Source of the DNA: Rhodoferax sp. | Lineage (GTDB): Bacteria; Pseudomonadota; Gammaproteobacteria; Burkholderiales; Burkholderiaceae | Reading direction: 5' to 3' | Assembly (NCBI GenBank): GCA_020048295.1 | Contig: JAIFMT010000028.1 | Coordinates: 1-20,383, forward strand | Length of the DNA stretch: 20,383 bases | Shown here: positions 1 to 13,348 of the stretch, piece after piece | Numbering within the stretch: position 1 is the first letter of the stretch | Layout of the letters: every line of letters begins with the position of its first letter | Notes under the pieces: generated by a model | What the model was told of the DNA's origin: nothing | Databases searched by the model: none | What the model saw: only the letters and a program-made list of their open reading frames with translations | Position numbers and translations under genes: made by a program

Positions 1-437
1 CCTTTGGCACGTCGGCAGTTCCTGTCGATCCCGTCTGCAGCAAGCGCTACCTCCAGACTTTCCATGCCTGCCCAGCCGGTAGGCGTCTATGCCGTCACGC
101 CCCCGTTTCCCCATCCAGACGAGAGACTGGTCTTTCTCTCACTCACCACCAACCCAAGGAGCCCCATGTTTCCAAACACCTCACACCTTGAAGCCCTGGC
201 AGCTTACGCCATGGCCTTTGTGGCCGGCGCGATGACGGCAACCAGCGCATGAGTACATGCGCAACCGGGGGGGTGCCTCCGGCGGCCTGGCAGGGGCCTG
301 TTTGAAAAAGACCAGAAGCCGAATACCGTTAAACATTCAGCAGTGACGACATGGGCGATGGCTTTTATCGCGCTATCGACAACTTCTTCCCCTCGGGCCG
401 TTCTGGCTACGGCGAAACCCTCGGTGGATCAGATTCG
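1..437. other. Region downstream of the operon, no recognised gene
   Basis: This stretch follows the last gene of the minus-strand operon. I see no recognisable protein family, RNA gene or insertion-sequence end in it. Several short open frames exist on the plus strand, but only the one at 166-252 has a convincing ribosome binding site. The G-run and GC-rich stretch at 265-300 allows weak local pairing, but there is no stem followed by a T-tract on the minus strand, so I cannot name a terminator for the operon. It may hold decayed remnants of an older gene. Confidence 0.4.
166..252 (+). CDS. Possible small hydrophobic protein (28 aa), unknown function
   Basis: A 28-codon open frame starts with ATG at 166. 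It is preceded by AAGGAG with a four-base spacer, the best Shine-Dalgarno match in this part of the window. The predicted peptide (MFPNTSHLEALAAYAMAFVA...) has a short Ala-rich hydrophobic segment, so a small membrane peptide is conceivable. A longer version starting at TTG 4 in the same frame has no such ribosome binding site and looks unlikely. It runs opposite to the secretion operon. It could equally be the first codons of a decayed gene, because the following 200 bases show short open frames in all phases. I do not recognise the family. Confidence 0.25.
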   Translation: MFPNTSHLEALAAYAMAFVAGAMTATSA

Positions 438-1280
438 TCATTTTGGCTCTATTGATGTGGAATTGGAATTACGCAAGAAGCTCACCCGGCATCGGACACC
501 TGCCGGTATGTCACCCTTGGGATTTGGCAACTCCAACTGAACACCAAAAGTACCGCTTGCTGAGTCAACTACCCGATCGATGATTGATACCGTGGCTAGG
601 TAACGCCCAGATAGCGGCGGCTCCACGTCGATATTGGCGTTCATACCTCTTCGCAGCTGACCGTAAATCGTTAACGGCAAAACAACTTCAACCCGTAACG
701 GATTAGTCTGCGCCAACTTCAGAATAGCTCGAGCGGTCTCACCAGCTTGAGCAATTTCGCCAACGTGTTGCAGGCGCTCAGTGACGATACCATTGAAGGG
801 ACTTCGAATTCTTCGCTGCTCCAACATCTCTCCGATGCGGCGCTCCTCAATGGCTGCCAATCGCTTATTGTCCTTCGCTTCAACTAGGCTGGCCTCAGCC
901 ACCTGCATCTCCGCCAAGGAATCATCTCGATCTTGGGTCGCGATAAACTGCTCTTTAAGTAATTCATCACGTCGTTGAAACTTTCCTCTTGAGGCGGAAA
1001 CTTTGCTTTCAGCGGTCTTAATTTCACCTTCCATCACGGCTCGATAGCGAGCGGCTTCCAATGCAGCCCGCTCCAGAGAACTGTCTAGTTCAACCAAAAC
1101 TTGACCACGCTTCACATCAGAACCACGGTCAACATGAAGAGCAACAATCCTTGCTTCAACAGAACTGCGCAATTCAACGCGTTGATTCGGTTCAATGAGA
1201 CAGGTGTAACCAAGTTCGGCAGCGATCGCCACACCAACAAAATTCATCATACACAACAGGATGAAGCACAAAAATCTCAT
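438..1280 (-). CDS. Periplasmic adaptor (HlyD/RND membrane-fusion family)
   Basis: This 280-residue protein begins with a cleavable-looking signal peptide (MRFLCFILLCMMNFVGVAIA, then AELGY). Next comes a biotinyl-lipoyl half (VEARIVALHVDRGSDVKRGQ), a helical hairpin (about 75-160), the second lipoyl half (RIRSPFNGIVTERLQHVGE) and a beta-barrel region. This is the order of RND-type membrane-fusion proteins, which bridge inner-membrane machinery to TolC. It is short for the family and has no membrane-proximal extension. The ATG overlaps the stop of the SecA-like gene by 4 bp (ATGA), with GGAG seven bases upstream, so translation is probably coupled. No RND pump lies beside it, so it presumably serves the same complex as the other two adaptors in the operon. 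Family is clear; partner is inferred. Confidence 0.9.
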   Translation of the reverse strand: MRFLCFILLCMMNFVGVAIAAELGYTCLIEPNQRVELRSSVEARIVALHVDRGSDVKRGQVLVELDSSLERAALEAARYRAVMEGEIKTAESKVSASRGKFQRRDELLKEQFIATQDRDDSLAEMQVAEASLVEAKDNKRLAAIEERRIGEMLEQRRIRSPFNGIVTERLQHVGEIAQAGETARAILKLAQTNPLRVEVVLPLTIYGQLRRGMNANIDVEPPLSGRYLATVSIIDRVVDSASGTFGVQLELPNPKGDIPAGVRCRVSFLRNSNSTSIEPK

Positions 1281-3268
1281 AGAGGCACTCCAGAAAACGC
1301 TAACATCTTGTCAAGTTCACGATCGCGCCGTAGCGTATCTCGCCGTGTCCGCGAATGAATTGCTTCAGCACGCGCTTGGGCATTTTTTCGGCATCGAGCA
1401 ATCCAAATGGTCAATGAAGAGTCTTCAAGCGAACGCGCTTGGCGTAACATTTTTAATTCTATGCCCCCATGCTGCTCAAAGAGGGCATCGTCCAAGGCGA
1501 TGATCGCGATGCATGTTCCTGCATCACCCTGACGAGCGCAACGACCAAAAAGCTGGCGGTCAATGCGCGGCGATTCGTGATATTCAGATAACACCACACA
1601 CAAACCACCGTTTTGCGCCACCCCTGGCCCTAAAACGATATCGGTTCCGCGACCCGCCAAGTTTGTGGCCACCGTAATGGCACCGGGTTGCCCAGCGGCA
1701 GCGACGATAGCCGCCTCCTGTTCATCTTGGCGCGCGTTAAGTACTCGGTGCGGTAAACCACAGGCTTGAAGCGTCTGACTTAATCGATCAGATGCGTCGA
1801 CGGAGCGTGTGCCCACCAGCACGGGTTGGCCACGCTGATGCAAAACCCTCACAAACTCTGCAACTGCCTGCCACTTTTCTGTTTCATTGGAATAAACCTG
1901 GTCAGGCAACCGCCTTCGCTGGCTTGGGCGGTGCACCGGAATTGTGACCGTGCTCAGGTCGTATACAGATGCCAGTTCAGGTGCCATCTCACGCGCTGTA
2001 CCGGTCATTCCGGCCAGCCGCAGGTAACGTGTAAAAAATCGCTGATAAGTAATGCGTGCCAAAGTCTGAGTCTGTTCCGACAAGTCAACACCTTCTTTGG
2101 CTTCAATCATCTGATGCAATCCCTGTTCCCAGGTACGCCCAGGTAGTACACGGCCAGTGTATTCGTCGATGATCTGGACCTTACCATCATCGTCGACCAA
2201 ATATTGCTGGTCGTGAATATACAGATGAAGTGCCCGCAGCGCCTGAGTCACCAGATGCTCACGTGCATGTGCCGCGCGCCAAGGCCCTAAATGAGTTCCA
2301 CAAAGATCCAGCAATCGTTCTTTGCCAGTTGCAGTCAAGTGCACTTCGCGACGCGCGGTGTTGATGACAAAATCAACTCCCAGTTGCAGCAGAGAAGCGA
2401 TTTTCAGCGCCTCGGGAAAAGCCTGCGCATCGGGTACCTGTCCCGCCTTCTCGGCAAGAATCAAGGGCGTACGTGCTTCGTCGATAAAGATGCTGTCGGC
2501 TTCATCAACGATCGCCAAATGCAGGCCGCGCAGCATCAAAGGACTGGCACCATGGCCAAACAGGCTACGTGCACGGACCTGCGCCGGCCCGATACGACCG
2601 CTTGCGGCCACTCGGTCACGCAAGTAATCAAATACCAACTCCTTGTTGGTGCAATAGGTAATTTCGCAAGCATAGGCCAACCGTTTGGCCTCGGGTTCAA
2701 TATCATGTATGACAGTGCCGACACGTAAGCCCATGAATTCAAATAAAGGAGCAAGCTTTTTGGCATCCCTCTGGGCCAAATAATCGTTGACCGTAACCAC
2801 ATGAACAGGCACACCTGCAGCGCCAGCGATGCATGCAGCCAGGCCAGCCGTTAAAGTCTTCCCCTCCCCGGTCTGCATTTCGGCCAACTGACCGCGAAGT
2901 AGCGTGGCAGCACCAACCAATTGCGTTGGAAACGGACGCATACCCAAGGTACGCGTTGCTACTTCGGCGGCCAGGAGCAATGCAAGATGCAGATCGCTTT
3001 GGCGTAACTGATGCACCGCCGGCGATGACGTTTGCAGCAGACGCTGGCGCAGTTCTGTGTCGGCCAAACCAGCAAACCCCGAACCCTGGCTGCCCAGAGC
3101 CTTTTTCAATACGCGCAACTCAAATGTGATGGGGACAGTCAACGCGGAACGCGCGCGGTAAATCAGTGCTCTTGCCAACTCATCCGACTTGCGATTGGGT
3201 CTTTCTTCGCGCTCCGGATACGGTCTATGTGCCAGTCGACCGTTGATCGACAGCAATCGGCTGCTCAT
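1277..3268 (-). CDS. SecA-like preprotein translocase ATPase, C-terminally minimal
   Basis: This 663-residue protein has the SecA motor: Walker A TGEGKT (about 133-138), TVNDYLAQRD (159-168), DEAD box in VDEADS (about 254-259) followed by IDEARTPLI, a preprotein cross-linking region up to about 360, DEYTGRVLPGRTWEQGLHQ, MTGTA (about 421-425), ATNLAGRGTDIVLG and RIDRQLFGRCARQGD. Housekeeping SecA proteins are about 850-900 residues. This one ends in the first long scaffold helix and lacks the helical wing, the two-helix finger and the zinc/SecB tail, and NBD2 lacks the usual variable insertion. The RGRxGRQGD motif is altered to FGRCARQGD. The ATG at 3268 lies two bases after the preceding stop and has AGGTG upstream (an in-frame GTG at 3271 is the alternative). 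Its place among adaptor genes suggests a specialised export motor rather than general Sec function, which is my inference. Confidence 0.93.
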   Translation of the reverse strand: MSSRLLSINGRLAHRPYPEREERPNRKSDELARALIYRARSALTVPITFELRVLKKALGSQGSGFAGLADTELRQRLLQTSSPAVHQLRQSDLHLALLLAAEVATRTLGMRPFPTQLVGAATLLRGQLAEMQTGEGKTLTAGLAACIAGAAGVPVHVVTVNDYLAQRDAKKLAPLFEFMGLRVGTVIHDIEPEAKRLAYACEITYCTNKELVFDYLRDRVAASGRIGPAQVRARSLFGHGASPLMLRGLHLAIVDEADSIFIDEARTPLILAEKAGQVPDAQAFPEALKIASLLQLGVDFVINTARREVHLTATGKERLLDLCGTHLGPWRAAHAREHLVTQALRALHLYIHDQQYLVDDDGKVQIIDEYTGRVLPGRTWEQGLHQMIEAKEGVDLSEQTQTLARITYQRFFTRYLRLAGMTGTAREMAPELASVYDLSTVTIPVHRPSQRRRLPDQVYSNETEKWQAVAEFVRVLHQRGQPVLVGTRSVDASDRLSQTLQACGLPHRVLNARQDEQEAAIVAAAGQPGAITVATNLAGRGTDIVLGPGVAQNGGLCVVLSEYHESPRIDRQLFGRCARQGDAGTCIAIIALDDALFEQHGGIELKMLRQARSLEDSSLTIWIARCRKNAQARAEAIHSRTRRDTLRRDRELDKMLAFSGVPL

Positions 3269-3270
3269 CA

Positions 3271-5418
3271 CTACACCTGAAAATAAGAAAGAAACGCTCT
3301 GCGCAATCCCCGCAAAATTCGCAACCCAACGGGTTCTGCCAGATGCTCAAAACGAACAAAGACACGGCTTCCGAGCCATTCATGCGGCATTTGCTGGGGC
3401 AATTCAAGCTCAAACTCAAAGACCGACTCAAGCGTTGCAAGACCCTTGACATCACTAGGATCGACTGCCGTTAGTCCTCCACCCATACTTCCGAGCACCG
3501 CACTTGGAAGTTGGTGAGCTGCAGCTGGAATAACGCGGGAAAGTCGGGCAGTCCAGGTTTCGCCCAATGCCTGCGGTACCTTGACTTCAATTTGTCGTGT
3601 TGCTAGGCGGACCGTATCAACATCGGACTGTGGAACGACCACTCTGACTAGCGGCGGCGCACCGGTCAGCACATAAGCGACAACTTCCCCTTTGCGCAAG
3701 TAGCGACCGGGCAAATCCGCTGCTTTGTCAATCAAGATCGTGCCCTGAAGCGCACTGCGCAAGGTCAGTCGCTCCGCTTCATCTTGTAAGCGCCCCAAAA
3801 TGGCGTTTTCACGCGCCAGATCCTGCTCTAACTGTTGCGCCTTGGCCTGCGAAACACCCCATGAAGCGTCAAACTGTACGCGAATTTCATCGACTTTGGC
3901 TTTTTGAACGTCTACGCGGGCGATCAATCCGGGCTCGACACTTTGCATGACAGCCTGTCCTGGCGTCACAGTCGAACCGCTGGGCAGCAAGACTTGCCGA
4001 ACAAAACCCCCACTTTCAGCACGCAAAATAGCTTGCTCGGGCAACCAAACCACTCCCTCAGTGCTGGTGTGGTACGAAACTGGCAATACAAATAAGCCCA
4101 GCGCAGCCGCCAGCACCATGCTGCTCAAAACCCACTTGATACGTGCACTACGATCAGCAAAACGCGGTGCGCTCCACAACGCCCTTAAGCCCTTGAAGAT
4201 CGGCAAAAAAACGCTCGCAACCACTGCCCAAATAGCAATCACAGCACCTATCACGAAAAACTGCTGGCCCACCAAAATCGCAATAGTGATCGAAACGAAC
4301 AACCGGTAGGCAAATGACAGCGGTGCATATCCAACAAACCAACGCCGCTCCCCTGGTGTCGCCGCGGACTGTTCTGGATTGCGCACGCCCAAGATGTAGC
4401 GCTCTACTAAATACTGCCAATAGCGCGTTGCACGACCAGCCAAGTTTGGACACTCAATCAGGTCAGCGAGGATGTAATAGCCATCGTAGCGCAGCAAGGG
4501 GTTAGCATTAAAAAATAATGTAGTAACACTGGCCAGCACCGCGATGTCATAAGCCATGGCCCGCAGCAGGCCTGGCTCCAATGCAAGCCAAAAATAAAAT
4601 GCAATGGCAGCAACAAACAATTCTGCCAACATACCTGCCGCCCCTACCAACATGCGCTGCCACTTGCTTACAAAAGCCGACGCGTTGGAGACATCCACGT
4701 AGGGCACCGGATAAAACACCAGGAACATCAAACCCATCTCGTGGACCTCGCCACCGCCCAGACGACACACCAAGGCATGACCAAACTCATGTACCGCCTT
4801 GACCAGTGGAAACAGCAATGCAAGCATCAGCAAATTGTTACTGGCGAGCAATCGCTCACTCGAATTGCTGCTCAATTCACCCCAATGTGAGGGCATGATC
4901 ACCAGAGCTGGAACCACTGCTGCGAGCCACAACAAAATACCACGCCAGCCATACAGTCGACCGAAAATTTTTGCAAGTAACTTGAGTAGACGATCCGGAT
5001 CGAAGACCGGTAAACGCAGCGCGATGGGGTTACCTAGGCGACCCAACCACTTGCGTCGTTGCTGCATCTTTCGTCGCTCCAGCAACTCAACCGTGTCCGG
5101 CGTAATGTTGGCTTGCACAAGATCTGCCGAATGCAATTGACCCAGCAATCGAATCACGTCATCCTGCGTAGGTGTCTCATCGCTTGGATCAGCGTTCAAA
5201 ATACTCCAAATCGCGTTCATGTCACGCTGACCGTCCATCAAACTGATAAGCCGGTAAGTAGTGAAGTTGAAGCGATGATGTTTGGCACCAAGACGATCTT
5301 CAATGACATACCAAACTTGGCCGCGATATTCGTGGCGATGCACCCTGACATTGCCGCGCAAACGTGGTTTTAGCGCCGCCAATCGGTACCACTCGCTTGA
5401 AAGCATCGGTCGGGTCAT
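3271..5418 (-). CDS. PqqD-like / M50 site-2 protease / HlyD fusion protein
   Basis: This polytopic inner-membrane protein has about 715 residues. Residues about 25-105 look like a PqqD-type winged-helix recognition domain (YVIEDRLGAKHHRFN, then TTYRLISLMDGQRD and a helical end). The M50 core follows, with HEFGH (about 210-214) in a membrane helix and NPLLRYDGYY (about 306-315, Asp ligand), the two site-2-protease zinc motifs, plus several other hydrophobic helices. After a last helix (about 430-447) comes a HlyD-type periplasmic part with lipoyl halves (ESGGFVRQVLLPSGSTVTPGQ; LQGTILIDKAADLPGRYLRKGE) around a coiled coil. Proteins annotated as peptide zinc metalloprotease with HlyD domains have this build. 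The frame extends to TTG 5445, but ATG 5418 has GGGA seven bases upstream and I prefer it. All zinc ligands seem present, so it may cleave or grip the exported substrate (inferred). Confidence 0.9.
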   Translation of the reverse strand: MTRPMLSSEWYRLAALKPRLRGNVRVHRHEYRGQVWYVIEDRLGAKHHRFNFTTYRLISLMDGQRDMNAIWSILNADPSDETPTQDDVIRLLGQLHSADLVQANITPDTVELLERRKMQQRRKWLGRLGNPIALRLPVFDPDRLLKLLAKIFGRLYGWRGILLWLAAVVPALVIMPSHWGELSSNSSERLLASNNLLMLALLFPLVKAVHEFGHALVCRLGGGEVHEMGLMFLVFYPVPYVDVSNASAFVSKWQRMLVGAAGMLAELFVAAIAFYFWLALEPGLLRAMAYDIAVLASVTTLFFNANPLLRYDGYYILADLIECPNLAGRATRYWQYLVERYILGVRNPEQSAATPGERRWFVGYAPLSFAYRLFVSITIAILVGQQFFVIGAVIAIWAVVASVFLPIFKGLRALWSAPRFADRSARIKWVLSSMVLAAALGLFVLPVSYHTSTEGVVWLPEQAILRAESGGFVRQVLLPSGSTVTPGQAVMQSVEPGLIARVDVQKAKVDEIRVQFDASWGVSQAKAQQLEQDLARENAILGRLQDEAERLTLRSALQGTILIDKAADLPGRYLRKGEVVAYVLTGAPPLVRVVVPQSDVDTVRLATRQIEVKVPQALGETWTARLSRVIPAAAHQLPSAVLGSMGGGLTAVDPSDVKGLATLESVFEFELELPQQMPHEWLGSRVFVRFEHLAEPVGLRILRGLRRAFLSYFQV

Positions 5419-5452
5419 GTCATCATCCCGATTCTTATCAAGCAAGTTGAAG

Positions 5453-7312
5453 TCATGGCATCCACTTCCACCAAGTCAAACGCAACCAGTCAAACAGCGA
5501 GTGCGTCCAGATCCAGAGCAAACTACGTTGCTCGGCATCAACCTTGGCCACACCTTCCATATTGGGGCTGAGCTTGGGTGCTTTTTGGCCCAACTCTGCT
5601 TCAACGCGAAAGAAATTTCGACCACCTTCAGCCACGGCAATTGGCGTTAGCTTCTTGACGGTGAAAGGCCAAGCAGTTCCTGGGAGACTCGACAACACAA
5701 GTTCACCAACTGCCCCGTGTTTCACATAACCAACATCGCGCTCGTCAACTTTAAGGATGACTCGCCATGAATCGAGCGGCGCCAGTTCAAAAAGTACTTT
5801 CCCCAGCTCAAGCGGCGAACCCAGAAGTTGTGAAAGATCACCTTTAACAACCACTCCAGCGAAGGGGGCGGTCACTTGCACCCGGCCAAGCTTGGTAAGC
5901 ACCAAATCCAGTTGGGCACGCGCTTGATTGGCCTGAGCCGCTGCCTGCTGCTGATCAACCCGGTTAGCTTTGGCCATCGCCTCAAGTTCCCTGCGCTGCG
6001 CCTGCTCCAACTCAGCCTCCCAACGAACCTGCTCCAATTTGAGATCGCGATCATCCAGCACTGCCAAGACCTGCCCACTTCTAACCACGTCACCAGCGCG
6101 CGCTGGAGCTTCACGAAGAAAACCCTCGAATGGAGCCACGGCGGACTGCTGTACTGCTCCCTCGACAACCGCCTGCGCCGAAACCCGATAGGTCGTCGGA
6201 ACAAGACCCAATACCACCACCATTGCGGCGACCATAGCGCTGACCAGTTTGATCGCAGGGTAAGAGCTATCAGTGACTACGCCCAGCGCTAAGGCTCCTT
6301 GACGCCACCCGCGAGCCAACCAACTTTGCTCTGCTTGCCGCCTGAGTTCAATGACAGGCGCCAGCGCAAGGGCTAGCGCCTCAAAAAACTCCAACTCATG
6401 GACCTCAAATGGCCGTACCCGCTCCAGCATCAGCACACCTGACACCTCGCTGCTGGAAATCAGCGGCAAAGTGCATAAGGTCATGTCATGTTGACTTTGT
6501 GCATACCGGCGGTGAGCTTCCACAACGAGATGAACCGGCCCCTGCGGCGGCCAATCGATCCGCTGCCGTTGATCAAAGGCTTCGTGCATAGCTTGTGCGG
6601 CCAGATTGACACTCTCAGTACGCTCATCAAACCACGCTGCATTGGACATTGCCAAAACCTGAACTGACTTTCTCTTAGTCAGGCCCAATTGAACTTGCTG
6701 ACACTGAAACTCCTCACTCATCCGATTCACCAACGCTAGGGCCACCTCGCGCAATGTACGCTCACCCAAACAGGCAATCAAGGTATCTAACAAAAGACCA
6801 CCCTGGGCATTGCGGCGAATCTGGCTCTCTAGCTCGACTTGGCCCAACACTTCAATCAGCCAACCAGCGCCCCAATGCATCAGACGCAGTGCGCGCTCCA
6901 GCGCCTCCTCATCTGCCACACCCAAATCAAGAACTACAGCACCATGCAGCTTCTCGGAAAACGGCGCAGTGCCTTGCTGATGGCGTTGATGCGTTTGCAG
7001 TGGATAAGCTACGCGCGAATGGCCAAATTCATCTTGCCGCACCACCCCCTCACGCTGGCGCAGGGCCTCAGTAGCAACATCGGCAAGGTAACTCAAATCG
7101 CGGGCTTGTGGAATACTGGCAGTTGGTGCAAAACTGCCATCGGGTTGCAGCATCAACACCACACCAGCACGCACACTCAGCAGTGACTGGCCTAACACGG
7201 TGAGCCACGCCAGATAGAGTTCATCAAGCGTCTGAGCGCTGGCGAAATCCTGCCAACTGTCACGCTCAAAACTGCTTAGTTCAACCGAACCGTCTTGATG
7301 ATAAGAACTCAT
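5453..7312 (-). CDS. GAF-like sensor fused to HlyD-type adaptor
   Basis: This protein has about 619 residues. The first about 330 are soluble and resemble two GAF-type folds: residues about 20-160 (LDELYLAWLTVLGQSLLSVRAGVVLML...) and about 180-325 (ending LPLISSSEVSGVLMLERVRPF, then FFEALALALAPVIELRRQ). A single membrane helix follows (IKLVSAMVAAMVVVLGLV, about 354-371). The rest is a HlyD adaptor with lipoyl halves (APFEGFLREAPARAGDVVRSGQ and VTAPFAGVVVKGDLSQLLGS), a coiled coil and a barrel. The single-helix topology puts the GAF part in the cytoplasm and the adaptor in the periplasm. GAF domains usually bind small ligands or partner proteins, so this may gate or dock the exporter. Start: the frame reaches TTG 7333, but I prefer ATG 7312; neither has a strong Shine-Dalgarno sequence. 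It lies between the TolC-like and M50 genes. Confidence 0.88.
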   Translation of the reverse strand: MSSYHQDGSVELSSFERDSWQDFASAQTLDELYLAWLTVLGQSLLSVRAGVVLMLQPDGSFAPTASIPQARDLSYLADVATEALRQREGVVRQDEFGHSRVAYPLQTHQRHQQGTAPFSEKLHGAVVLDLGVADEEALERALRLMHWGAGWLIEVLGQVELESQIRRNAQGGLLLDTLIACLGERTLREVALALVNRMSEEFQCQQVQLGLTKRKSVQVLAMSNAAWFDERTESVNLAAQAMHEAFDQRQRIDWPPQGPVHLVVEAHRRYAQSQHDMTLCTLPLISSSEVSGVLMLERVRPFEVHELEFFEALALALAPVIELRRQAEQSWLARGWRQGALALGVVTDSSYPAIKLVSAMVAAMVVVLGLVPTTYRVSAQAVVEGAVQQSAVAPFEGFLREAPARAGDVVRSGQVLAVLDDRDLKLEQVRWEAELEQAQRRELEAMAKANRVDQQQAAAQANQARAQLDLVLTKLGRVQVTAPFAGVVVKGDLSQLLGSPLELGKVLFELAPLDSWRVILKVDERDVGYVKHGAVGELVLSSLPGTAWPFTVKKLTPIAVAEGGRNFFRVEAELGQKAPKLSPNMEGVAKVDAEQRSLLWIWTHSLFDWLRLTWWKWMP

Positions 7313-7360
7313 GAAAGGCCAATATCGACCCAAACGACTCTGGCCCGGAAAGACACAACA

Positions 7361-8674
7361 CTACTCATGCAATAATGCATCAAGAGATTTGAGGTCCTGC
7401 TCATCGATTGCACCCGCCGAAAATTTGAGTTGCAGCCCAGCTACCAGCGCTTGATAGCGCGCTGCCGACAAATCCCGGCGAGTTGTATACAGTTGCTGTT
7501 GCGCGTTGAGCACATCGACCCGTGTGCGAACCCCCACTTCCAATCCGCGTCGTGTCGACCGTACCTGCGTCTCACCAGACATAACAGCCTGCGCCAACGC
7601 CTGATTCAAGGCAATTCCGGATCGAACGCCCATTTGTGCTTGACGCGCATCGAGTGTCGCCTGCCGTTGGGCATTATCGAGCTCGCTTTGAGCGCGACTC
7701 AAATTGGCCGCGGCTTCGCGCGCGCGAGAACTCACTGCCCCGCCTTGATAAAGAGGCACTGAAAGTTCGAGACCAATATAGGCTGATTCGGTGTACTGGC
7801 CGTCAAAACCACTGAAATTGGTATTGTGATTTTTACTGTAACTGCCAATCAAATCAATTGTAGGGTAGTGACCTGCACCTTGTTTTTCTACCTCCTGCCG
7901 GGCGATCTGCTCTCCGGTCTGCCCAATCTCGACTTGCGTCGCGGTTAAAGCTGCATTGTCGACAAAAGTCTGCATCTGAGCCTCTGCAAGCAGATCTATA
8001 TTGACCGACGAGTCGAGCGAAGCCAAATGCGGCAATGGGCTATTGATCACCTTTTCTAGCATTCGACGTTTGACTTCAAGGTCATTGCCGGCAGCAATTT
8101 CCTGAGCAATCGTCAAGTCATAACGCGTTTGCGCCTCGTTCACATCGGTCACTGGTGCCAACCCTACAGCATGACTGCGTTTGGTTTGCGCCAATTGCTG
8201 AGTAAACGCCTCCTTTTGTGCTCCCACTGTAGCCAGGGCATCCTGCGCTTGCAACGTTTCAAAGTAGGCCCTGGACACCCGCATCATCAAGTCCTGCTCG
8301 GCAAGCTTCAATTGTTGTTCTGCCAAGGCGGCCTGCAATTCACCTTGCCGGTAGGTTGCCAAATTTACCGGCCTTAGAAGTGGTTGATTCAAGGACAAAC
8401 CCAGAGAGTCGGACGAGTAGTCTCTTGTTCCGTTGTAAGCGCTTGAGGACTCACGATTAGACTTAATGTTACCGTTAATCGTAATGGTTGGCCGCAATAG
8501 CGCGCGACCCTGAGCACTTTTTTCACGGCCAGCTTCAGCCGCATGAACTGCTGCCGCAAACTGGGCATCGTTGGCTCGCGCCAGCGCATAGATGGCACTG
8601 AGATTGGCAGAAGAAGCCAATGGCGTGGCAAACAAGGCGGTGATAACGACCGCAACAACAGGTGGATGACGCAT
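7361..8674 (-). CDS. TolC-family outer-membrane channel protein
   Basis: This 437-residue protein has a signal peptide (MRHPPVVAVVITALFATPLASSA). Mature features fit the TolC/outer-membrane efflux family: NLSAIYALARANDAQFAAA at the N-terminus, a beta-strand block (LRPTITINGNIKSN, then LGLSLNQPLL), paired long helices (MRVSRAYFETLQAQDALA) and the internal repeat (YPTIDLIGSYS, then YIGLELSVPLYQGG, then RRGLEVGVRTRVDVLNAQQQLY). It is close to the usual length of about 430-490. It would form the trimeric exit duct reached by the HlyD-type adaptors. The open frame extends to 8728, but ATG 8674 is preceded by AGAGG with an eight-base spacer and starts directly at the signal peptide, so I choose it. 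It lies 50 bp behind the DUF3467-like gene. Confidence 0.95.
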   Translation of the reverse strand: MRHPPVVAVVITALFATPLASSANLSAIYALARANDAQFAAAVHAAEAGREKSAQGRALLRPTITINGNIKSNRESSSAYNGTRDYSSDSLGLSLNQPLLRPVNLATYRQGELQAALAEQQLKLAEQDLMMRVSRAYFETLQAQDALATVGAQKEAFTQQLAQTKRSHAVGLAPVTDVNEAQTRYDLTIAQEIAAGNDLEVKRRMLEKVINSPLPHLASLDSSVNIDLLAEAQMQTFVDNAALTATQVEIGQTGEQIARQEVEKQGAGHYPTIDLIGSYSKNHNTNFSGFDGQYTESAYIGLELSVPLYQGGAVSSRAREAAANLSRAQSELDNAQRQATLDARQAQMGVRSGIALNQALAQAVMSGETQVRSTRRGLEVGVRTRVDVLNAQQQLYTTRRDLSAARYQALVAGLQLKFSAGAIDEQDLKSLDALLHE

Positions 8675-8724
8675 GGTTGCTACCTCTCTCAACATTAGTG
8701 ATTTGACCTTGCAGCTGAAAAATA

Positions 8725-9030
8725 TCACTTGATTGGGCCGTAACGACCTTCGTACTGCGTCACCAGTTTGCCCAGCAGTTCACCTAATCTCTTGGTAGCG
8801 AAAGGGCTCATCACAATGCGGTGCGCCAACTCGATTTCAACCTCGCTGGTCATCCGATCCCAGTTGCTATTCATCCCAAAATTCAGCACCACTTCTTCTT
8901 GGGTGGAGTTGGCGTTAACAAAATTGGCATAAGAGCTCTTTAATTTTTCAGTGTTCCACGTAATCTTCGGTCCGGAGTCGCCTGAAGATTTGGCCAGATC
9001 AGCTGCAGAATTCTTGGTAGCGGTATCCAT
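8725..9030 (-). CDS. DUF3467-like small protein
   Basis: This protein of about 101 residues has no signal peptide or membrane helix. The core resembles DUF3467: SYANFVNANSTQEEVVLNFG, then a short loop, then ELAHRIVMSPFATKRLGELLGKLVTQYEGRYGPI. In that family the same layout (an N-terminal A-N-x-x-x-V-x-x-T-x-E-E strand, a VxxSPxxAKRL helix and a YExxxG end) is conserved, and the function is unknown. AAGGTG lies eight bases before ATG 9030 and only two before the ATG at 9036, so I prefer 9030. It sits 42 bp after the stop of the giant protein gene and before the TolC-like gene, which suggests a cytosolic partner such as a substrate escort or an assembly factor. That role is a guess from position. 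Confidence 0.75.
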   Translation of the reverse strand: MDTATKNSAADLAKSSGDSGPKITWNTEKLKSSYANFVNANSTQEEVVLNFGMNSNWDRMTSEVEIELAHRIVMSPFATKRLGELLGKLVTQYEGRYGPIK

Positions 9031-9072
9031 ATGCATTTCACCTTTTTAAGTTGATAACAGTTCGCAAAAAAT

Positions 9073-10680
9073 CTACAGGCGGACTCGCCATTCCTGGTTA
9101 GCAGTCCTTTTTGCGCCTAGCCAGCGAGGGATCCAGCCAGGCGAATGACGTGCTAACACCTTCTCAGTGGTTTTCACAGCATGCGATGAAATCCGAACCT
9201 TTTGGGCGTCTTCGTCGTGTTCATTATCGAGTTTACGTGCACCAGCGGCCATCGCGCGACGTGCCAAACGTGTATCAAATATGCGGGGTTGTCTCGCCAA
9301 CATGGCTACCCCCCCGATACCACCCGTTAGTGATGACCACAACGCATCCGTCTCAGTCCATGCGTCTGTTTGCACCCCCCACCGCTCTGTGATCCAGCTG
9401 AAACTGCCGACCGCTTCGGTCGAATAGCCATTAGGAGTCTCCAGCAAACCAAAATGATCGGCTGAAATGGCCATAATATTAAATCGGCCACGATAGTCGA
9501 CACCTGGCTTGCCGTCGTAGTCACCATCTAGATTTTCACCGGTTGAAGTCTTGAACGCGCTAGACCGCAAACGTATGCTGTAAGTACCCTCAGGCAGCAG
9601 TCCGGTCTCAGCGACAAACGTTACCCCAGCACCATCGGGATCGACCAGAACATGTCCCTTAATCTGAACATCGTCCCGCGTTACCACAATGCGTGAATCC
9701 AAGTCGCCAACACCCAACGCCCGCACATCAATCGGCTGATTGAATCGAATTCTCAGACCGCCACCGGTGATGACGACACCACGCACCTGCAGAGTCGACC
9801 CGGCCGCGGTTGTCGATGGAGAACTTTCCTCGTCCCATATGGCCGCCAATTGATCACCGTCATACCGGGTGCCGCTAACTCCGCTCTCGATTGTTGCGAA
9901 CCCTAATGCTTGTGAATACGGGTGCGAACTGATGGCGTTAAAGTGCGACAAATAATCAACATTGAAGCCATCGGGTGCGTCAAAACTATAGAGATGCCGC
10001 CCATATGGCTGTTCGCGCAGATCAGCGTCATCTTTCCAGACCGCTACCGGCCCGGTGGTCTCTTGCACTGTTTTAAATTCAGAGTTCGTGCTATCACTCA
10101 GCACACGCACCCGCAGCGAATTGGCCGACCACATTCCATCCTCGTCCTGACCTCGCACATTCACAGCAATCGCCTCGATCGCACGAGTGAACACATGCGT
10201 TGTATTCACCTGTGCGCCATCCACGATGACGCTAGTTCCGTCACCCCAATCAACAAACCAACGACTCACTGCATCGGTCCCCAAATCGGCATACCCCAGT
10301 GCCAGCGTATAAATCTGTCCCACATGAGCGACCTCCGGACCCGTCGCAGTGATCTGAGGCGGCAAATTAGCAACATAGACATTGAAACTACGAATGCTGC
10401 TGACCCCAGTTGCATCAGTGACACGCACACTAAAGCTTGCATCTTTTGGACCGTCAAGCGCGGTCCATTCAATACGACCTCCAGAGTTCATGCTGGCTCC
10501 GGCCGGTGCGGCGTCCAACGAGTAAGCCAACTGATCGCCAACGTCCGCATCGCTCGCCTGAACAGTCACAAAAAGTTGCTCTGATTCATTGAGCACGAGA
10601 TCATTCAATGCCGCCATAACCGGCGCGTCATTGACGGGTCGCACTGTCAAGCTCACAGTTGCCAAGCCACTGGTCAACAC
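9073..10680 (-). CDS. Giant surface protein, C-terminal segment (third frame)
   Basis: This segment has about 535 residues. The GTG at 10680 is only the first usable start in this frame; the sequence makes sense back to about 10725, where it should join the upstream frame. Order: the end of a Big_9-like repeat (VTVSDG-type end), a He_PIG-like Ig fold (NDAPVMAALNDLVLNESEQ), a PKD-like module (VDWGDGTSVIVDG), an unrecognised region (VAVWKDDADLREQPYG...), a Big_5-like fold (GGGLRIRFNQPIDVRAL ... LPEGTYSIRLRSSAFKTS) with LDGDYDGKPGVDYRG, and a C-terminal tail from about residue 460. The last about 75 residues (from PRIFDTRLARRAMAAGARKL) are rich in Arg/Lys and end EWRVRL. They show no RTX, LPXTG, PEP-CTERM or barrel signature. 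Base composition matches the downstream machinery genes. The tail is the best candidate for the export signal read by the neighbouring system (inferred). Confidence 0.85.
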   Translation of the reverse strand: MLTSGLATVSLTVRPVNDAPVMAALNDLVLNESEQLFVTVQASDADVGDQLAYSLDAAPAGASMNSGGRIEWTALDGPKDASFSVRVTDATGVSSIRSFNVYVANLPPQITATGPEVAHVGQIYTLALGYADLGTDAVSRWFVDWGDGTSVIVDGAQVNTTHVFTRAIEAIAVNVRGQDEDGMWSANSLRVRVLSDSTNSEFKTVQETTGPVAVWKDDADLREQPYGRHLYSFDAPDGFNVDYLSHFNAISSHPYSQALGFATIESGVSGTRYDGDQLAAIWDEESSPSTTAAGSTLQVRGVVITGGGLRIRFNQPIDVRALGVGDLDSRIVVTRDDVQIKGHVLVDPDGAGVTFVAETGLLPEGTYSIRLRSSAFKTSTGENLDGDYDGKPGVDYRGRFNIMAISADHFGLLETPNGYSTEAVGSFSWITERWGVQTDAWTETDALWSSLTGGIGGVAMLARQPRIFDTRLARRAMAAGARKLDNEHDEDAQKVRISSHAVKTTEKVLARHSPGWIPRWLGAKRTANQEWRVRL

Positions 10681-10719
10681 CCCGTCGCTAACTGTATAGG
10701 TAAAGCTGTCGTTGCCGTT
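10628..10719 (-). repeat. 92-bp direct repeat, copy 1
   Basis: Identical base for base to 10848-10939. It encodes the end of a Big_9-like repeat and the linker (NGNDSFTYTVSDGVLTSGLA...VRPVND). The distance between copies is 220 bp, not a multiple of three, which accounts for the second frame break. Confidence 0.95.
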
Positions 10720-13348
10720 GAATCGGCGCGGTAACCACCGTTGGCGTCAATACATCGCCTTCGGCGTCATAGTCGTTGCCGCGTACATCAACGACTAGCG
10801 CAACATCCTCATCGGTGGCATAGGCATCGTTGAATGCAGCGGGTACATCATTGACGGGTCGCACTGTCAAGCTCACAGTTGCCAAGCCACTGGTCAACAC
10901 CCCGTCGCTAACTGTATAGGTAAAGCTGTCGTTGCCGTTACCGTGCGTTGGCGACTGCACCACTACTGGCGTCAATGCACTACTTTCTGCATCGGTATCA
11001 TTCAAGCGAACGTCCAATACCAACGCAGTATCTTCGTCCGTGTCAAAGCCATCGTCACCCGCAACCGGAGCGCTGTTGCTTGGATTTATCGTGATAGACA
11101 CGTTTGCGATCGCACTGCTGAGTGCCCCATCACTCGCGCGATAACTAAACTGATCGGCACCCACATACCCCGTGGTCGGTGTATAGACCACCTTTCCATC
11201 GCCGCTGACGCTAACACTACCATGTGCTGGGTTGAAGACGATCACTGGTATCAGCACAGAGGAATCCACATCGGTATCGTTGGCCAACACGTCAATCGTC
11301 ACATCCTGGTTAAAGGCCGCAACCGCCGTGTCAGGCTGCGCCACAGGGGCTGCGTTGGTCGCCAGCACAGTAATATCCACTCGCGCCAGGGCACTGACCA
11401 ACTCGCCGTCGCTAATCGTATAAAAGAAACGATCGCTACCGGCATAACCTGCATCAGGCTTGTAGGTCAGCGTTCCGTCACCATTGATGTTGAGCGTGCC
11501 ATGCAATGGCGCCGTCACCGAGGCCACTTGAATGGGATCGCCATTGGCATCGCCGTCGTTGGCCAACACGTCCAGCAGCTGCGTGGTGTCGCGCGGTAAG
11601 CTGGCCGTGTCGGCGCCCGCCACTGGCGCAACGTTGCCCGCTGTGACGAAGGCCACGTTGTCGACGCTGACCTGGCTGCCCAGCGCGCCGAAGCCCAGCA
11701 GGTCGAAGCTCAGCAGCACCGGCTGTGCCGCGGCGATGCCGGAGACATCAATGCGAACCTGGATCGTGCCATCCGCGGCACTGGGCAGCACCGTGGTCGT
11801 CAGTCCGTTGAAGGTGATGCCACTGGCGGCGAAGACCTGCCCGTCGCTCTGCACATTGATCGCCGCATCGGTGCTCGACAGGCCGATGCCGCCGAGCAGC
11901 GACCGACCGGTATTCAGATCAAGCAGCGCCATCTCAAAGGCATCGCCGATGCCGGAGCCCGCAGCGCCGAACTGTACGTCACTCAGGTCGAAGGTGAGGA
12001 AGCGCGCACCCAGCGGCACCAGCATCTGCTGCGACAGGCTGGAGTTGAAGGTGGCGTCCTCGGCCAGCGTGGCCTGTCCGCTGGCGATGTTGACCGCGCC
12101 GCGGGTGGTCCAGGCGGTCGGGTTGTTGAACACGCCATCGGTCACGCCGCTGGCCAGCAGGCCGGAATCGATCAGCGTGGTGCCGACCTCCACCTGGATC
12201 AGTAGGTCGGTGGCCGCTGGCAAGCGGCGCTCGCCGACATTGAGCTGCGCGTTCATCGCGTCGGCCAGCTCGGCCTCGGCATGCGCCAGCCCAAGCATGT
12301 GGCCGTATTCGTGCACCAGCAGCGTCAGCAAGTCCATCCGGTCGGCGGCTGCCCCAGCAACGCCCCAGTAGCTTGCCTGACCGTCGTTGAACAGGTACTC
12401 ATCGTTCGATGCCGGTGTCGCGTCGATGTACCAGCCACGACCGGCGGCATTGTCGTCAATGTAGACCGTGCCGCCCTGCCCCAGGATGCCCACGCTCAGC
12501 CCGAGCACGTCGCGCTCGAGGTCGGTGACCACCAGTTGCACGTCGCCCAGCAAGTGCACGTCCGCACCCACGGCCGCCCAGGACGCACGCGCCTGCGCCG
12601 ACAGCCCGTCCAGTGCCGAAACGATGGACAAAGCACTCGTCGAATCGGCCGCGTCGAGCATAGTGACCGTGGTGCTGCCATGGGCCGGGTTCAGGTGGGT
12701 CGCAGCGCTGTTGGCGCTACTGCCGCCACCCGCGCGCAACGGGCCTACCTGCAGCGGGTTCACCAGCAGCGATGCCGTCGCGGTGCCAGTGCCCAGGTCA
12801 TCGTCCTTGACGGTGACGCTGATGCCCAGTGTCTTGGCCGGCTGCGGGTTGGTCGGATCGCCGATGAAGGTGCGCGAGAAGTTGTAGAGACCGGCACCGG
12901 CCGGCAGCGTGTCGGTCTGCGTCACGCCGTCGCCCCAATCGATGGTGATGTCGAAGCTGTCCTGGCTGCCCGCGTCGTTGACGGCCAGCACATAGCTGGC
13001 GGTGTCGCCCTCGGTGATAGCCGTAGGCGCCAGGCTCAGGCTCAGAACCGGATCGGTGTTGTTGACATGCAGATTGACCGTGGTCGTGCCGGTGGCGATG
13101 TCGCTGTCGTCGTCCTTCAGCTCGACCGTGAACACCAGGTCGTCGCCGTTGGTGCCCTCGGGGCTGTCGTCGGCCACCGTAATCGGGATCTCGAAGCTGC
13201 CGACGCCATCGGAGAACATGACCGTGCCCACAGCGCTGCCACCATCCCAGCTCACCTGGACCTCGTGCGTGTCCTGCTTTCCCTTGTCGATGAAGATGCC
13301 CGGGCGGCTTGTTGCCCAGCACCACGGTGCGGGTGCGAGTGCCTTCAC
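10688..13348 (-). CDS. Giant surface protein, middle segment (second frame) with metzincin-like domain
   Basis: The formal start (GTG 13348) is spurious. Meaningful sequence begins at about residue 16 (GIFIDKGKQDTHEVQVSWDG), just after the first frameshift. Domains in order: two PKD/Calx-like units (DWGDGVTQTDTLPAGAG), a metalloprotease-like domain with HEYGHMLGLAH and a following DAMNAQLNVGERRLP, a jelly-roll-like sandwich (TAWTTRGAVNIASGQATL to VSVDNVAF), then four Big_9-like repeats of the xxAPVAxxDxxxxxED type. Repeats 1 and 2 are full length (about 93 residues). Repeat 3 is about 74 residues because the strand between THG and NGNDSFTYT is missing, and repeat 4 breaks there, reading into TAPIQRQRQLYLYS and a stop. 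GC content falls within this segment near 11.5-11.6 kb. Together with the two flanking frames it is almost certainly one gene. Confidence 0.85.
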   Translation of the reverse strand: MKALAPAPWCWATSRPGIFIDKGKQDTHEVQVSWDGGSAVGTVMFSDGVGSFEIPITVADDSPEGTNGDDLVFTVELKDDDSDIATGTTTVNLHVNNTDPVLSLSLAPTAITEGDTASYVLAVNDAGSQDSFDITIDWGDGVTQTDTLPAGAGLYNFSRTFIGDPTNPQPAKTLGISVTVKDDDLGTGTATASLLVNPLQVGPLRAGGGSSANSAATHLNPAHGSTTVTMLDAADSTSALSIVSALDGLSAQARASWAAVGADVHLLGDVQLVVTDLERDVLGLSVGILGQGGTVYIDDNAAGRGWYIDATPASNDEYLFNDGQASYWGVAGAAADRMDLLTLLVHEYGHMLGLAHAEAELADAMNAQLNVGERRLPAATDLLIQVEVGTTLIDSGLLASGVTDGVFNNPTAWTTRGAVNIASGQATLAEDATFNSSLSQQMLVPLGARFLTFDLSDVQFGAAGSGIGDAFEMALLDLNTGRSLLGGIGLSSTDAAINVQSDGQVFAASGITFNGLTTTVLPSAADGTIQVRIDVSGIAAAQPVLLSFDLLGFGALGSQVSVDNVAFVTAGNVAPVAGADTASLPRDTTQLLDVLANDGDANGDPIQVASVTAPLHGTLNINGDGTLTYKPDAGYAGSDRFFYTISDGELVSALARVDITVLATNAAPVAQPDTAVAAFNQDVTIDVLANDTDVDSSVLIPVIVFNPAHGSVSVSGDGKVVYTPTTGYVGADQFSYRASDGALSSAIANVSITINPSNSAPVAGDDGFDTDEDTALVLDVRLNDTDAESSALTPVVVQSPTHGNGNDSFTYTVSDGVLTSGLATVSLTVRPVNDVPAAFNDAYATDEDVALVVDVRGNDYDAEGDVLTPTVVTAPIQRQRQLYLYS
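10719..10727 (-). other. Frameshift site 2 in giant protein gene (deletion in repeat 4)
   Basis: The second frame reads TAPI then QRQRQLYLYS and stops. The third frame, in the same bases, reads FNGNDSFTYTVSDG, the normal end of a Big_9-like repeat. About 20 residues of the repeat, between the APxHG turn and NGNDS, are absent, so an out-of-frame deletion has occurred at this junction. Confidence 0.8.
10848..10939 (-). repeat. 92-bp direct repeat, copy 2
   Basis: Identical to 10628-10719. Here the repeat joins THG in frame, giving SPTHGNGNDSFTYT, which is also shorter than the neighbouring full repeats. Both copies therefore mark a shortened repeat unit. Confidence 0.95.
12240..12640 (-). other. 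Metzincin-like zinc protease domain in giant protein
   Basis: The motif HEYGHMLGLAH (12281-12313) matches the HExxHxxGxxH zinc site of metzincins (M10/matrixin/serralysin group): three His ligands and a catalytic Glu. It is followed at close range by DAMNAQLNVGERRLP, which could supply the Met-turn, and preceded by a strand-rich stretch (VQLVVTDLERDVLGL, GTVYIDDNAAGRGWYID). All active-site residues are intact. It could trim the giant protein itself or outside targets. Confidence 0.75.

Follow-up and report, generated by a model that had tools for sequence, protein, structure and literature searches.

We analysed a stretch of 20,383 nucleotides from Rhodoferax sp. (GenBank assembly GCA_020048295.1, contig JAIFMT010000028.1, positions 1 to 20,383), which is referred to in its full length as the window. 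Its minus strand carries, at positions 438–9036, a compact run of genes that encode, reading from 9036 to 438, a DUF3467 protein, a TolC-family outer membrane factor, a GAF-HlyD protein, an M50-HlyD protein, a SecA-like ATPase and the adaptor MFP1. The reading that we favour, with modest confidence, is that this run is a dedicated envelope-export operon and that its cargo is the neighbouring giant LEPR-XLL protein; that LEPR-XLL proteins are cargo or client of the operon is probable. The window is a further member of a locus type that Kamneva, Poudel and Ward predicted in 2015 (PMC4452313). What is added here is the LEPR-XLL cargo family, its likely bipartite signal, and variants that argue against the SecA-like protein as an indispensable motor.

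LEPR-XLL proteins as the proposed cargo

A sample of 398 genomes from a single phylum, that of genome G001, was searched for M50-HlyD, for the SecA-like protein and for LEPR-XLL (NCBIfam NF012209). Matches above 340 bits were taken as full M50-HlyD and those above 550 bits as SecA-like, lines that were chosen after the lists had been seen; the SecA-like search was run at an E-value of 1e-150, and the M50 search scored the two best candidates per genome, so that copies are undercounted. LEPR-XLL was found in 32 of the 37 genomes with a full M50-HlyD compared to 9 of the 361 others, and eight of these nine have a weaker relative of M50-HlyD (149–179 bits), only G241 having none. The corresponding counts in Nitrospirota are four of five and 0 of 113. 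Among genomes picked from those of the 80 related loci described below, 28 of 29 carry LEPR-XLL, compared to none of 14 control genomes. For 32 of 55 LEPR frames a listed M50 or SecA-like match is on the same contig (24 within 10 kb), and in G001 two giants each lie about 3 kb from their own M50-HlyD. The frames are mostly huge, with 31 of the 55 reaching at least 4,000 amino acids and the longest 19,427. LEPR frames from Nitrospirota (G531, G541, G520 and G019) measure only 597–928 amino acids, and the LEPR system is therefore not limited to giants. The first-pass annotation of the window had asked whether giant proteins are consistent neighbours, and the LEPR-XLL linkage bears this out.

Twelve of the 80 loci also have an N-terminus with the LEPR-XLL motif in their fetched flank, and the three that were scanned exceed the NF012209 cut-off. 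This count derives from 16 pattern hits, of which five shadow-like frames were dropped (L001, L027, L038, one of two in L054, and L057) to leave 11, with the FEPR form of L062 then added. For a comparison of leaders, 38 rows less a false hit to GAF-HlyD (L021) and five repeats gave 32 distinct sequences. Their greatest mean hydropathy over 15 residues, taken out to 40 residues past the motif, lies between 0.63 and 1.58 and thus never reaches 2.0, a value attained by 30 of 58 MFP1 and 8 of 20 TolC proteins, although this control is weakened by over-long start choices. The leaders are basic, with a median net charge of +8 ahead of the motif, and show no hydrophobic core of the Sec signal type. 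The consensus at the motif reads hydrophobic-E-A-L-E-P-R-hydrophobic-L-L-S-A-D. Because the search pattern fixes part of it, only the flanking E (30 of 32 leaders) and D (29 of 32) give independent support.

Conservation of the gene set

When one genome per species was scanned with an M50-HlyD alignment, 394 relatives were obtained and the best 80 of them kept. Their loci come from Beta-, Gamma- and Alphaproteobacteria, Myxococcota, Thermodesulfobacteriota, Nitrospirota, Rokuibacteriota and Omnitrophota; the 80 include none from Planctomycetes, a phylum of the 2015 paper (PMC4452313). With the window this makes 81 loci, of which 55 (the window excluded) have room on both sides for a count of neighbours within 4.5 kb on either strand. 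GAF-HlyD is near M50-HlyD in all 55, MFP1 in 50 (on the opposite strand in some loci), the SecA-like gene in 45, DUF3467 in 24 and TolC in 13, and members of the DUF3467 family occur in 31 of the 81 loci, window included. Such clustering is far beyond chance.

In the 398-genome sample, full M50-HlyD occurs in 37 genomes, the SecA-like protein in 34 and both in 31, so that a SecA-like match accompanies 31 of 37 full M50-HlyD genomes compared to 3 of 361 others. Thirty-nine of 43 SecA-like genes have a listed M50 match no more than 1 kb away, and the remaining four are on contigs without one. In Nitrospirota, full M50-HlyD was found in 5 of 118 genomes, with the SecA-like protein alongside in the same five. 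The supposition that these genes form a conserved unit therefore stood up to the co-occurrence survey, across phyla, in the 55 loci with room on both sides, in the 398 genomes and in Nitrospirota. A wider M50-HlyD family (approximately 140–270 bits) is present in many further genomes of the sample, and its members sometimes lie within 7 kb of a LEPR frame on the same contig (G066, G093, G111, G150 and G222).

Composition of the operon

All parts named in the first-pass annotation, namely a TolC-like protein, three HlyD-type adaptors, an M50 membrane protease and a SecA-like ATPase in one tight minus-strand run, are present, and DUF3467 comes in addition. The spacings along the run, with the end of the giant included, are −4, −1, 7, 27, −4 and 36 bases; genes inside the operon overlap or are separated by at most 27 bases, and 36 bases lie between the giant and DUF3467. 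Family matches are clear for DUF3467 (103 amino acids, 8725–9036; PF11950, 67.7 bits), for the TolC-family outer membrane factor (7361–8728; TIGR01844, 284.7 bits against a cut-off of 225.15, and OEP, 167.6 bits), for GAF-HlyD (5453–7333; GAF, 31.4 bits, and HlyD_3, 53.4 bits) and for MFP1 (280 amino acids, 438–1280; TIGR01730, 135.4 bits against a cut-off of 94.9, and HlyD_D23, 51.7 bits), all on the minus strand, as they are for the SecA_DEAD domain of the SecA-like protein. GAF-HlyD consists of a GAF domain, one strong transmembrane segment (residues 360–378) and a periplasmic HlyD domain, while MFP1, a periplasmic adaptor of the HlyD/RND_mfp type, has a single hydrophobic stretch at its N-terminus (residues 3–21) that constitutes a hydrophobic signal. 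None of the three adaptors is a clear member of the type I HlyD subfamily TIGR01843 (cut-off 208.65 bits), for which MFP1 scores 33.9 and GAF-HlyD 47.9 bits and M50-HlyD is unlisted. A scan of nine frames of the window gave no family match to an ATP-binding cassette (ABC) ATPase, an ABC permease or a resistance-nodulation-division (RND) permease, in agreement with the earlier statement that the window holds neither an ABC exporter nor an RND pump. A search of plasmids for near matches to positions 1–8000 of the window gave none.

M50-HlyD (724 amino acids, 3271–5445, minus strand) combines a PqqD-like N-terminal domain, an M50 membrane metalloprotease and a periplasmic HlyD domain. Its M50 and HlyD matches are weak, the former at 26.9 bits lying just below the cut-off of 27.2 and the latter below its cut-offs. 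The M50 identity is nevertheless settled, since all 81 loci carry HExxH and NPxxxxDG-type motifs; the zinc motif of the window copy is HEFGH (4777–4791), and its H219, E220 and H223 are invariant in alignment A1. Six transmembrane-like stretches are apparent by hydropathy, and an AlphaFold2 model (mean predicted local distance difference test score, pLDDT, 70.3; predicted template modelling score 0.39) has helices at those places. With these stretches and the catalytic motifs in every locus, the role of inner-membrane platform that the first-pass annotation had offered for this protein is possible. The modelled HlyD part resembles the drug-efflux adaptors MacA and MexA.

The PqqD-like domain (approximately residues 27–110; 5116–5367, minus strand) is modelled as three strands followed by three helices, with block-mean pLDDT values of 50–84. 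A PqqD match in Pfam was obtained for 16 of 18 family members, and the window's own copy gave none at an E-value of 0.01. The nearest NCBIfam model of M50-HlyD is a metalloprotease of daptide biosynthesis (143 bits, under its cut-off of 300). In systems of peptide maturation, domains of the PqqD type bind leader peptides, and by this analogy, together with the daptide relationship, the PqqD-like domain of M50-HlyD would be the part that reads the LEPR leader.

The SecA-like protein (664 amino acids, 1277–3271, minus strand) matches SecA_DEAD (298.6 bits), P-loop_SecA and SecA_PP_bind. It retains the DEAD or first nucleotide-binding domain, the preprotein cross-linking domain and the second nucleotide-binding domain, thus two nucleotide-binding folds, and its ATPase motifs are intact, with Walker A as TGEGKT (2855–2872). 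The alignment to Thermotoga maritima SecA (3jux) ends at residue 651; past this point lie what we take to be the wing, the two-helix finger and the C-tail, and these are consequently missing. No SecA_SW match was listed for the window protein at an E-value of 0.1. Loss of the wing and finger only hints at independence from SecYEG. In a tree of 60 SecA-like proteins (55 labelled intact and 5 dead) and seven canonical SecAs, which contains no SecA2, a 100/100 branch splits the two groups. The SecA-like proteins above 550 bits match the SecA-like model almost to its end, whereas the main stretch of canonical SecA stops at about position 550, with a weak second stretch to 651. Among 29 operon-bearing genomes, canonical SecA is full in 26, in pieces only in two and absent from one, and none of the 29 has a full second SecY. 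One SecY match was found in 24 of them, two in two and none in three; the two matches of G013 are overlapping pieces of one place, and those of G017 are a stretch 41–306 plus a distant stretch 1–61.

SecA-less and ATPase-dead variants

A number of observations weigh against the favoured reading. As to the cargo, 23 of the 55 LEPR frames have no listed M50 or SecA-like match on their contig, in part because scoring was limited to the two best M50 candidates of each genome. Moreover, 70 of the 110 genomes with any M50-HlyD match (E-value 0.001) have no LEPR match, 65 of them having weak M50-HlyD matches only and five the full family. The genomes are related, and the Fisher p-values for the linkage (2e-27 to 9e-37) therefore overstate independence. 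In the window itself the N-terminus of the giant, and hence any LEPR-XLL motif, falls beyond the end. C-terminal RTX repeats are described for one published LEPR-XLL giant (PMC10868602), and among 36 end stretches of giants that we fetched, the GGxGxD motif occurs five to nine times in four and once in one, with none in the other 31.

As to the SecA-like protein, it can be lost from the locus or lose its ATPase motifs. In the M50 tree, 11 gammaproteobacterial loci group as a single clade with a Shimodaira–Hasegawa-like approximate likelihood ratio test (SH-aLRT) value of 100, and no SecA-like match was found at any of them. They belong to Marinobacter, Moraxellaceae, Granulosicoccaceae and Chromatiales, with one unplaced. 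The clade keeps GAF-HlyD and M50-HlyD, and MFP1 in 10 of 11. Ten of its 11 genomes show canonical SecA only and the eleventh no SecA, and LEPR-XLL is present in all 11. Marinobacter sediminum R65 is a strain in which no SecA-like match was found. Outside this clade, G039, G098 and G361 have LEPR-XLL and full M50-HlyD without a SecA-like match, and G320 has only a broken SecA-like piece with a stop (512.7 bits, below the 550 line). Three further loci are unclear as SecA-less cases: in L071 the 2.1 kb gap between M50-HlyD and MFP1 has the size of a SecA gene, though without a match, L048 holds a SecA fragment, and L076 is likewise unclear. In six SecA-less loci of Granulosicoccaceae and Chromatiales (L070, L073, L074, L078, L079 and L080) two genes, for 1,065–1,133 and 252–262 amino acids, come after MFP1 (13369–17556 in L078). 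The larger genes, of about 1,080 amino acids, were considered as RND pumps; the sole one scanned, of 1075 amino acids in L078, encodes PAS-GGDEF-EAL and is followed by a GDSL-type protein, hinting at control by cyclic di-GMP in these loci.

In five loci (L040, L051, L061, L062 and L066) the SecA-like reading frame is full length and lacks Walker A, GMTGT, GRGTDI and motif VI. The ratio of nonsynonymous to synonymous substitution rates (dN/dS) of the dead pair L061–L062 is 0.15, compared to 0.16 and 0.15 for two intact pairs, so that this closest dead pair evolves under constraint; full length and this ratio argue for a retained role other than hydrolysis. Among more distant dead pairs the ratio is 0.29–0.43, exceeding the M50 of the same loci. 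In the M50 tree, the four betaproteobacterial dead loci form a clade (SH-aLRT 99) whose sister loci are intact. In the SecA tree the dead proteins do not stand beside their intact M50 kin, L066 is on a branch of 10, and long-branch effects are likely. Of 55 other SecA-like proteins that reach the last motif, 53 keep all seven stretches (with TGEGKT or TGEGKS for Walker A), so that most lineages keep ATPase activity under constraint; the exceptions are L024, which departs in motif VI, and L054, which is gapped in one stretch. Two genomes with a dead copy, G544 (C74/C76) and G545 (C269/C278), carry another SecA-like copy with a high score as well, which points to paired subunits. In G546, G027 and G547 only the dead copy and canonical-scoring SecA stretches were found, an absence that is weak evidence in draft genomes. 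LEPR-XLL occurs in four of the five genomes with a dead SecA-like protein, G547 being the one without.

C-terminal motifs and the giant of the window

The C-termini of the giants were compared in an exploratory way: 28 ends, the window's included, were picked by eye as the frame preceding the operon, and patterns were written afterwards. WLxxWL is present in 10 of the 28 compared to 6 of 1,568 other frames of more than 200 amino acids, and 11 of the 28 have [IVLR][DN]W among their last 78 residues compared to 50 of the 1,568, without overlap between the two sets of giants. From genomes, 36 end stretches were fetched, 10 of them without a stop and the SecA-less ones all from one clade. Giants of SecA-less genomes (L111–L128) share a hydrophobic C-terminus of the form RGG (one RAG) ..P.W..DP, possibly a membrane anchor. 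Judged by eye, RGG..P.W occurs in 11 of 14 stop-bearing ends from SecA-less genomes (12 of 14 counting the RAG variant), compared to 0 of 12 from genomes with the SecA-like protein and 0 of 1,568 in the background.

The giant of the window (9073–20381, minus strand) is broken over three frames, for which an assembly error or real breaks are alike possible. Its C-terminal frame (535 amino acids, 9073–10680) matches Big_9, PKD_4 and He_PIG and ends with PGWIPRWLGAKRTANQEWRVRL (9076–9141), a motif of the WLxxWL class; WLxxWL and xWxI motifs found in relatives are both seen at this end. The second frame (10688–13348) holds cadherin-like or tandem-95 repeats (Big_9, 161.1 bits) and, at residues 325–360, a weak stretch of matrixin (M10) metalloprotease type (24.5 bits). 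The third (12798–20381) runs open off the end of the window, with a weak dockerin-like stretch at residues 91–139. Two long open frames of 910 and 997 amino acids (13002–15734 and 15885–18878, plus strand) are antisense to the giant; their repetitive translations, rich in arginine and histidine, suggest that they merely shadow the coding strand.

Proposed mechanism and alternatives

In the mechanism that we propose, the PqqD-like domain, placed in the cytoplasm, would read the LEPR leader. M50-HlyD and GAF-HlyD would form the inner-membrane platform and the three HlyD parts together with TolC the conduit. The SecA-like ATPase would hold the unfolded giant and feed it, the M50 site may trim the leader, and the chain would cross the inner membrane via SecYEG or via the platform itself. 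Passage independent of SecYEG we advance only tentatively. The first-pass annotation had the SecA-like protein drive export through a dedicated adaptor and TolC conduit. The conserved set, the accompanying giants, the lack of a full second SecY in 29 genomes and the presence of an LssB-type ABC protein over its cut-off in only 14 of these speak for that view; its obligatory motor did not survive the 11-locus gammaproteobacterial clade and the five ATPase-dead loci. The SecA-like step is an add-on that lineages can do without, or keep without its ATPase activity, and the protein is therefore better described as a feeder or receptor than as the defining motor. We also entertain, as a rather speculative extension, a separate one-step secretion class for signal-less giants. 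Here the PqqD-like domain within a protease-cum-HlyD adaptor would read the LEPR-XLL leader, and a machine-dependent C-terminal motif (of WLxxWL or IDW type with the SecA-like protein, hydrophobic RGG..P.W..DP without it) would end transport. A SecA relative without the SecY-engaging parts would feed the conduit without SecYEG and would, in some lineages, be a non-hydrolysing receptor.

The wing and finger of SecA act at SecY. It is possible, if not what we favour, that the SecA-like protein nonetheless delivers the giant to the single SecYEG, like Gram-positive SecA2-only systems, and that the adaptors and TolC take over in the periplasm. Any Sec channel used would be the shared one, as no full second SecY exists in the 29 genomes; the preprotein cross-linking domain is retained, and canonical SecA, seen in 10 of the 11 gammaproteobacterial genomes, could cover for the absent SecA-like protein. 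The end of the SecA-like protein at T. maritima residue 651, and so the lack of wing and finger, tells against this route (loss of the wing-scaffold is also given in the available text of PMC4452313). So do the LEPR leaders without a hydrophobic core and the position of 39 of 43 SecA-like genes within 1 kb of M50-HlyD. LapD and LapG act on LapA at the envelope, and the operon could likewise process, tether or gate giants that leave via an ordinary type I exporter encoded elsewhere. Some LEPR giants do carry RTX motifs, a type I-like set adjoins the operon in L009, as do HlyD and TolC of such a set in L042, an LssB ABC protein is over the cut-off in 14 of 29 genomes, and the PAS-GGDEF-EAL gene follows the operon in the SecA-less L078. 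We hold this to be unlikely, given that 15 of the 29 genomes have no LssB ABC protein over the cut-off (other type I ABC subfamilies were not sought) and yet 28 of 29 have LEPR-XLL. In 13 of the 14 genomes with the ABC gene it lies off every listed LEPR contig, and in G001 more than 270 kb away; 31 of the 36 fetched ends, furthermore, are without GGxGxD.

The SecA-like protein could be a chaperone or a receptor for the cargo and not a motor, with energy coming from the proton motive force, from canonical SecA or from folding outside. This is suggested by the full-length frames without motifs in L040, L051, L061, L062 and L066, by the low dN/dS of L061–L062, which matches that of intact pairs, and by the clade formed by four of the dead loci. 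As a general account it is doubtful: 53 of 55 other proteins keep all seven stretches, so that ATPase activity is constrained in most lineages, a dead copy may be the partner subunit of the second copy in G544 and G545, and dN/dS of distant dead pairs exceeds that of M50 in the same loci. It is very improbable that operon and giants are neighbours by chance or through shared regulation and that the adaptors export something small. MFP1 is of the RND_mfp and not the type I subfamily, the modelled HlyD part of M50-HlyD is MacA- or MexA-like, and 5 of the 37 full M50-HlyD genomes have no LEPR match; the linkage, however, is repeated in two phyla and in two copies within G001. Use of SecYEG and a receptor role of the SecA-like protein can both be compatible with a dedicated exporter; these two, as well as ABC export elsewhere, are live rivals.

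Relation to known systems

The first-pass annotation had not recognised the system, although the locus and the same hypothesis were printed in 2015 (PMC4452313). In the available text of that paper the locus comprises SecA_DEAD, M50-HlyD, GAF-HlyD, HlyD/biotin_lipoyl and sometimes OEP genes, the SecA_DEAD protein has no wing-scaffold domain or only a fragment of it, and a SecA-type ATPase and an M50 pore are proposed to replace the ABC transporter. The available main text proposes no cargo, does not contain the terms LEPR, giant, DUF3467 or PqqD, and describes no ATPase-dead or SecA-less variants. Proteins above 1,000 amino acids are drawn according to the legend of its Fig. 3, so that long neighbours may have been seen. 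The paper also gives a four-gene form of the operon in the laboratory strain Methylobacterium extorquens AM1 (MexAM1_META1p2402-2399). The window agrees with this locus type in its SecA_DEAD protein (298.6 bits, no SecA_SW, alignment to residue 651), in the neighbouring M50-HlyD, GAF-HlyD and HlyD/biotin-lipoyl genes (the M50 and HlyD parts of M50-HlyD being below cut-off) and in the six transmembrane-like stretches of the M50 protein. In print, within the open-licence literature without preprints, no link between LEPR-XLL and an exporter was found; the available text of PMC10868602 and of one further paper merely mentions the LEPR-XLL name, with no exporter. A 2021 review of tripartite systems (PMC8277102) gives, in its available text, ABC, RND and major facilitator superfamily proteins as the energised inner-membrane parts, and SecA occurs there three times, alongside SecYEG or SecDF.

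With type I secretion (HlyB/HlyD/TolC) the window shares an adaptor, a TolC protein (284.7 against 225.15 bits) and very large repeat proteins. It differs in that its run has no ABC protein, MFP1 is of the RND_mfp type instead of the type I HlyD subfamily, with the modelled HlyD part of M50-HlyD MacA- or MexA-like, and the motif on the proposed cargo is N-terminal. An ABC signature pattern occurs in 3 of the 80 fetched loci, namely L009 (opposite strand), L030 (behind two other genes) and L067. In the related loci L009 (8259–13146) and L042 (4519–9198) a type I-like set on the minus strand adjoins the operon, which is on the opposite strand. The ABC protein of the L009 set was assigned by pattern and its HlyD and TolC by weak matches; only HlyD and TolC were seen in L042. 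Proteins of 598 and 595 amino acids in L030 and L028, behind two other genes, look like a multi-spanning ABC exporter from their pattern and N-terminal sequence only. MacAB-TolC and MexAB-OprM differ from the window run by their RND permease or ABC (MacB) partner.

Accessory SecA2 systems (SecA2-only and SecA2-SecY2) are linked to large surface proteins such as serine-rich adhesins. The likeness to the window lies in an additional ATPase of the SecA family that is associated with such proteins, with core motor domains and ATPase motifs (five relatives being without the motifs). The differences are that the 29 genomes of relatives have no full second SecY, that the SecA-like protein is truncated, and that the hosts are Gram-negative with an adaptor and TolC set.

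Implications

The locus type has been known since 2015 without a cargo, and a cargo family that has no Sec signal makes the question of its exit from the Gram-negative cell testable. If it is true that a SecA relative drives or receives export without SecYEG, this would change what SecA is assumed to require. The ATPase-dead and SecA-less lineages are natural experiments on which parts of the system are essential.

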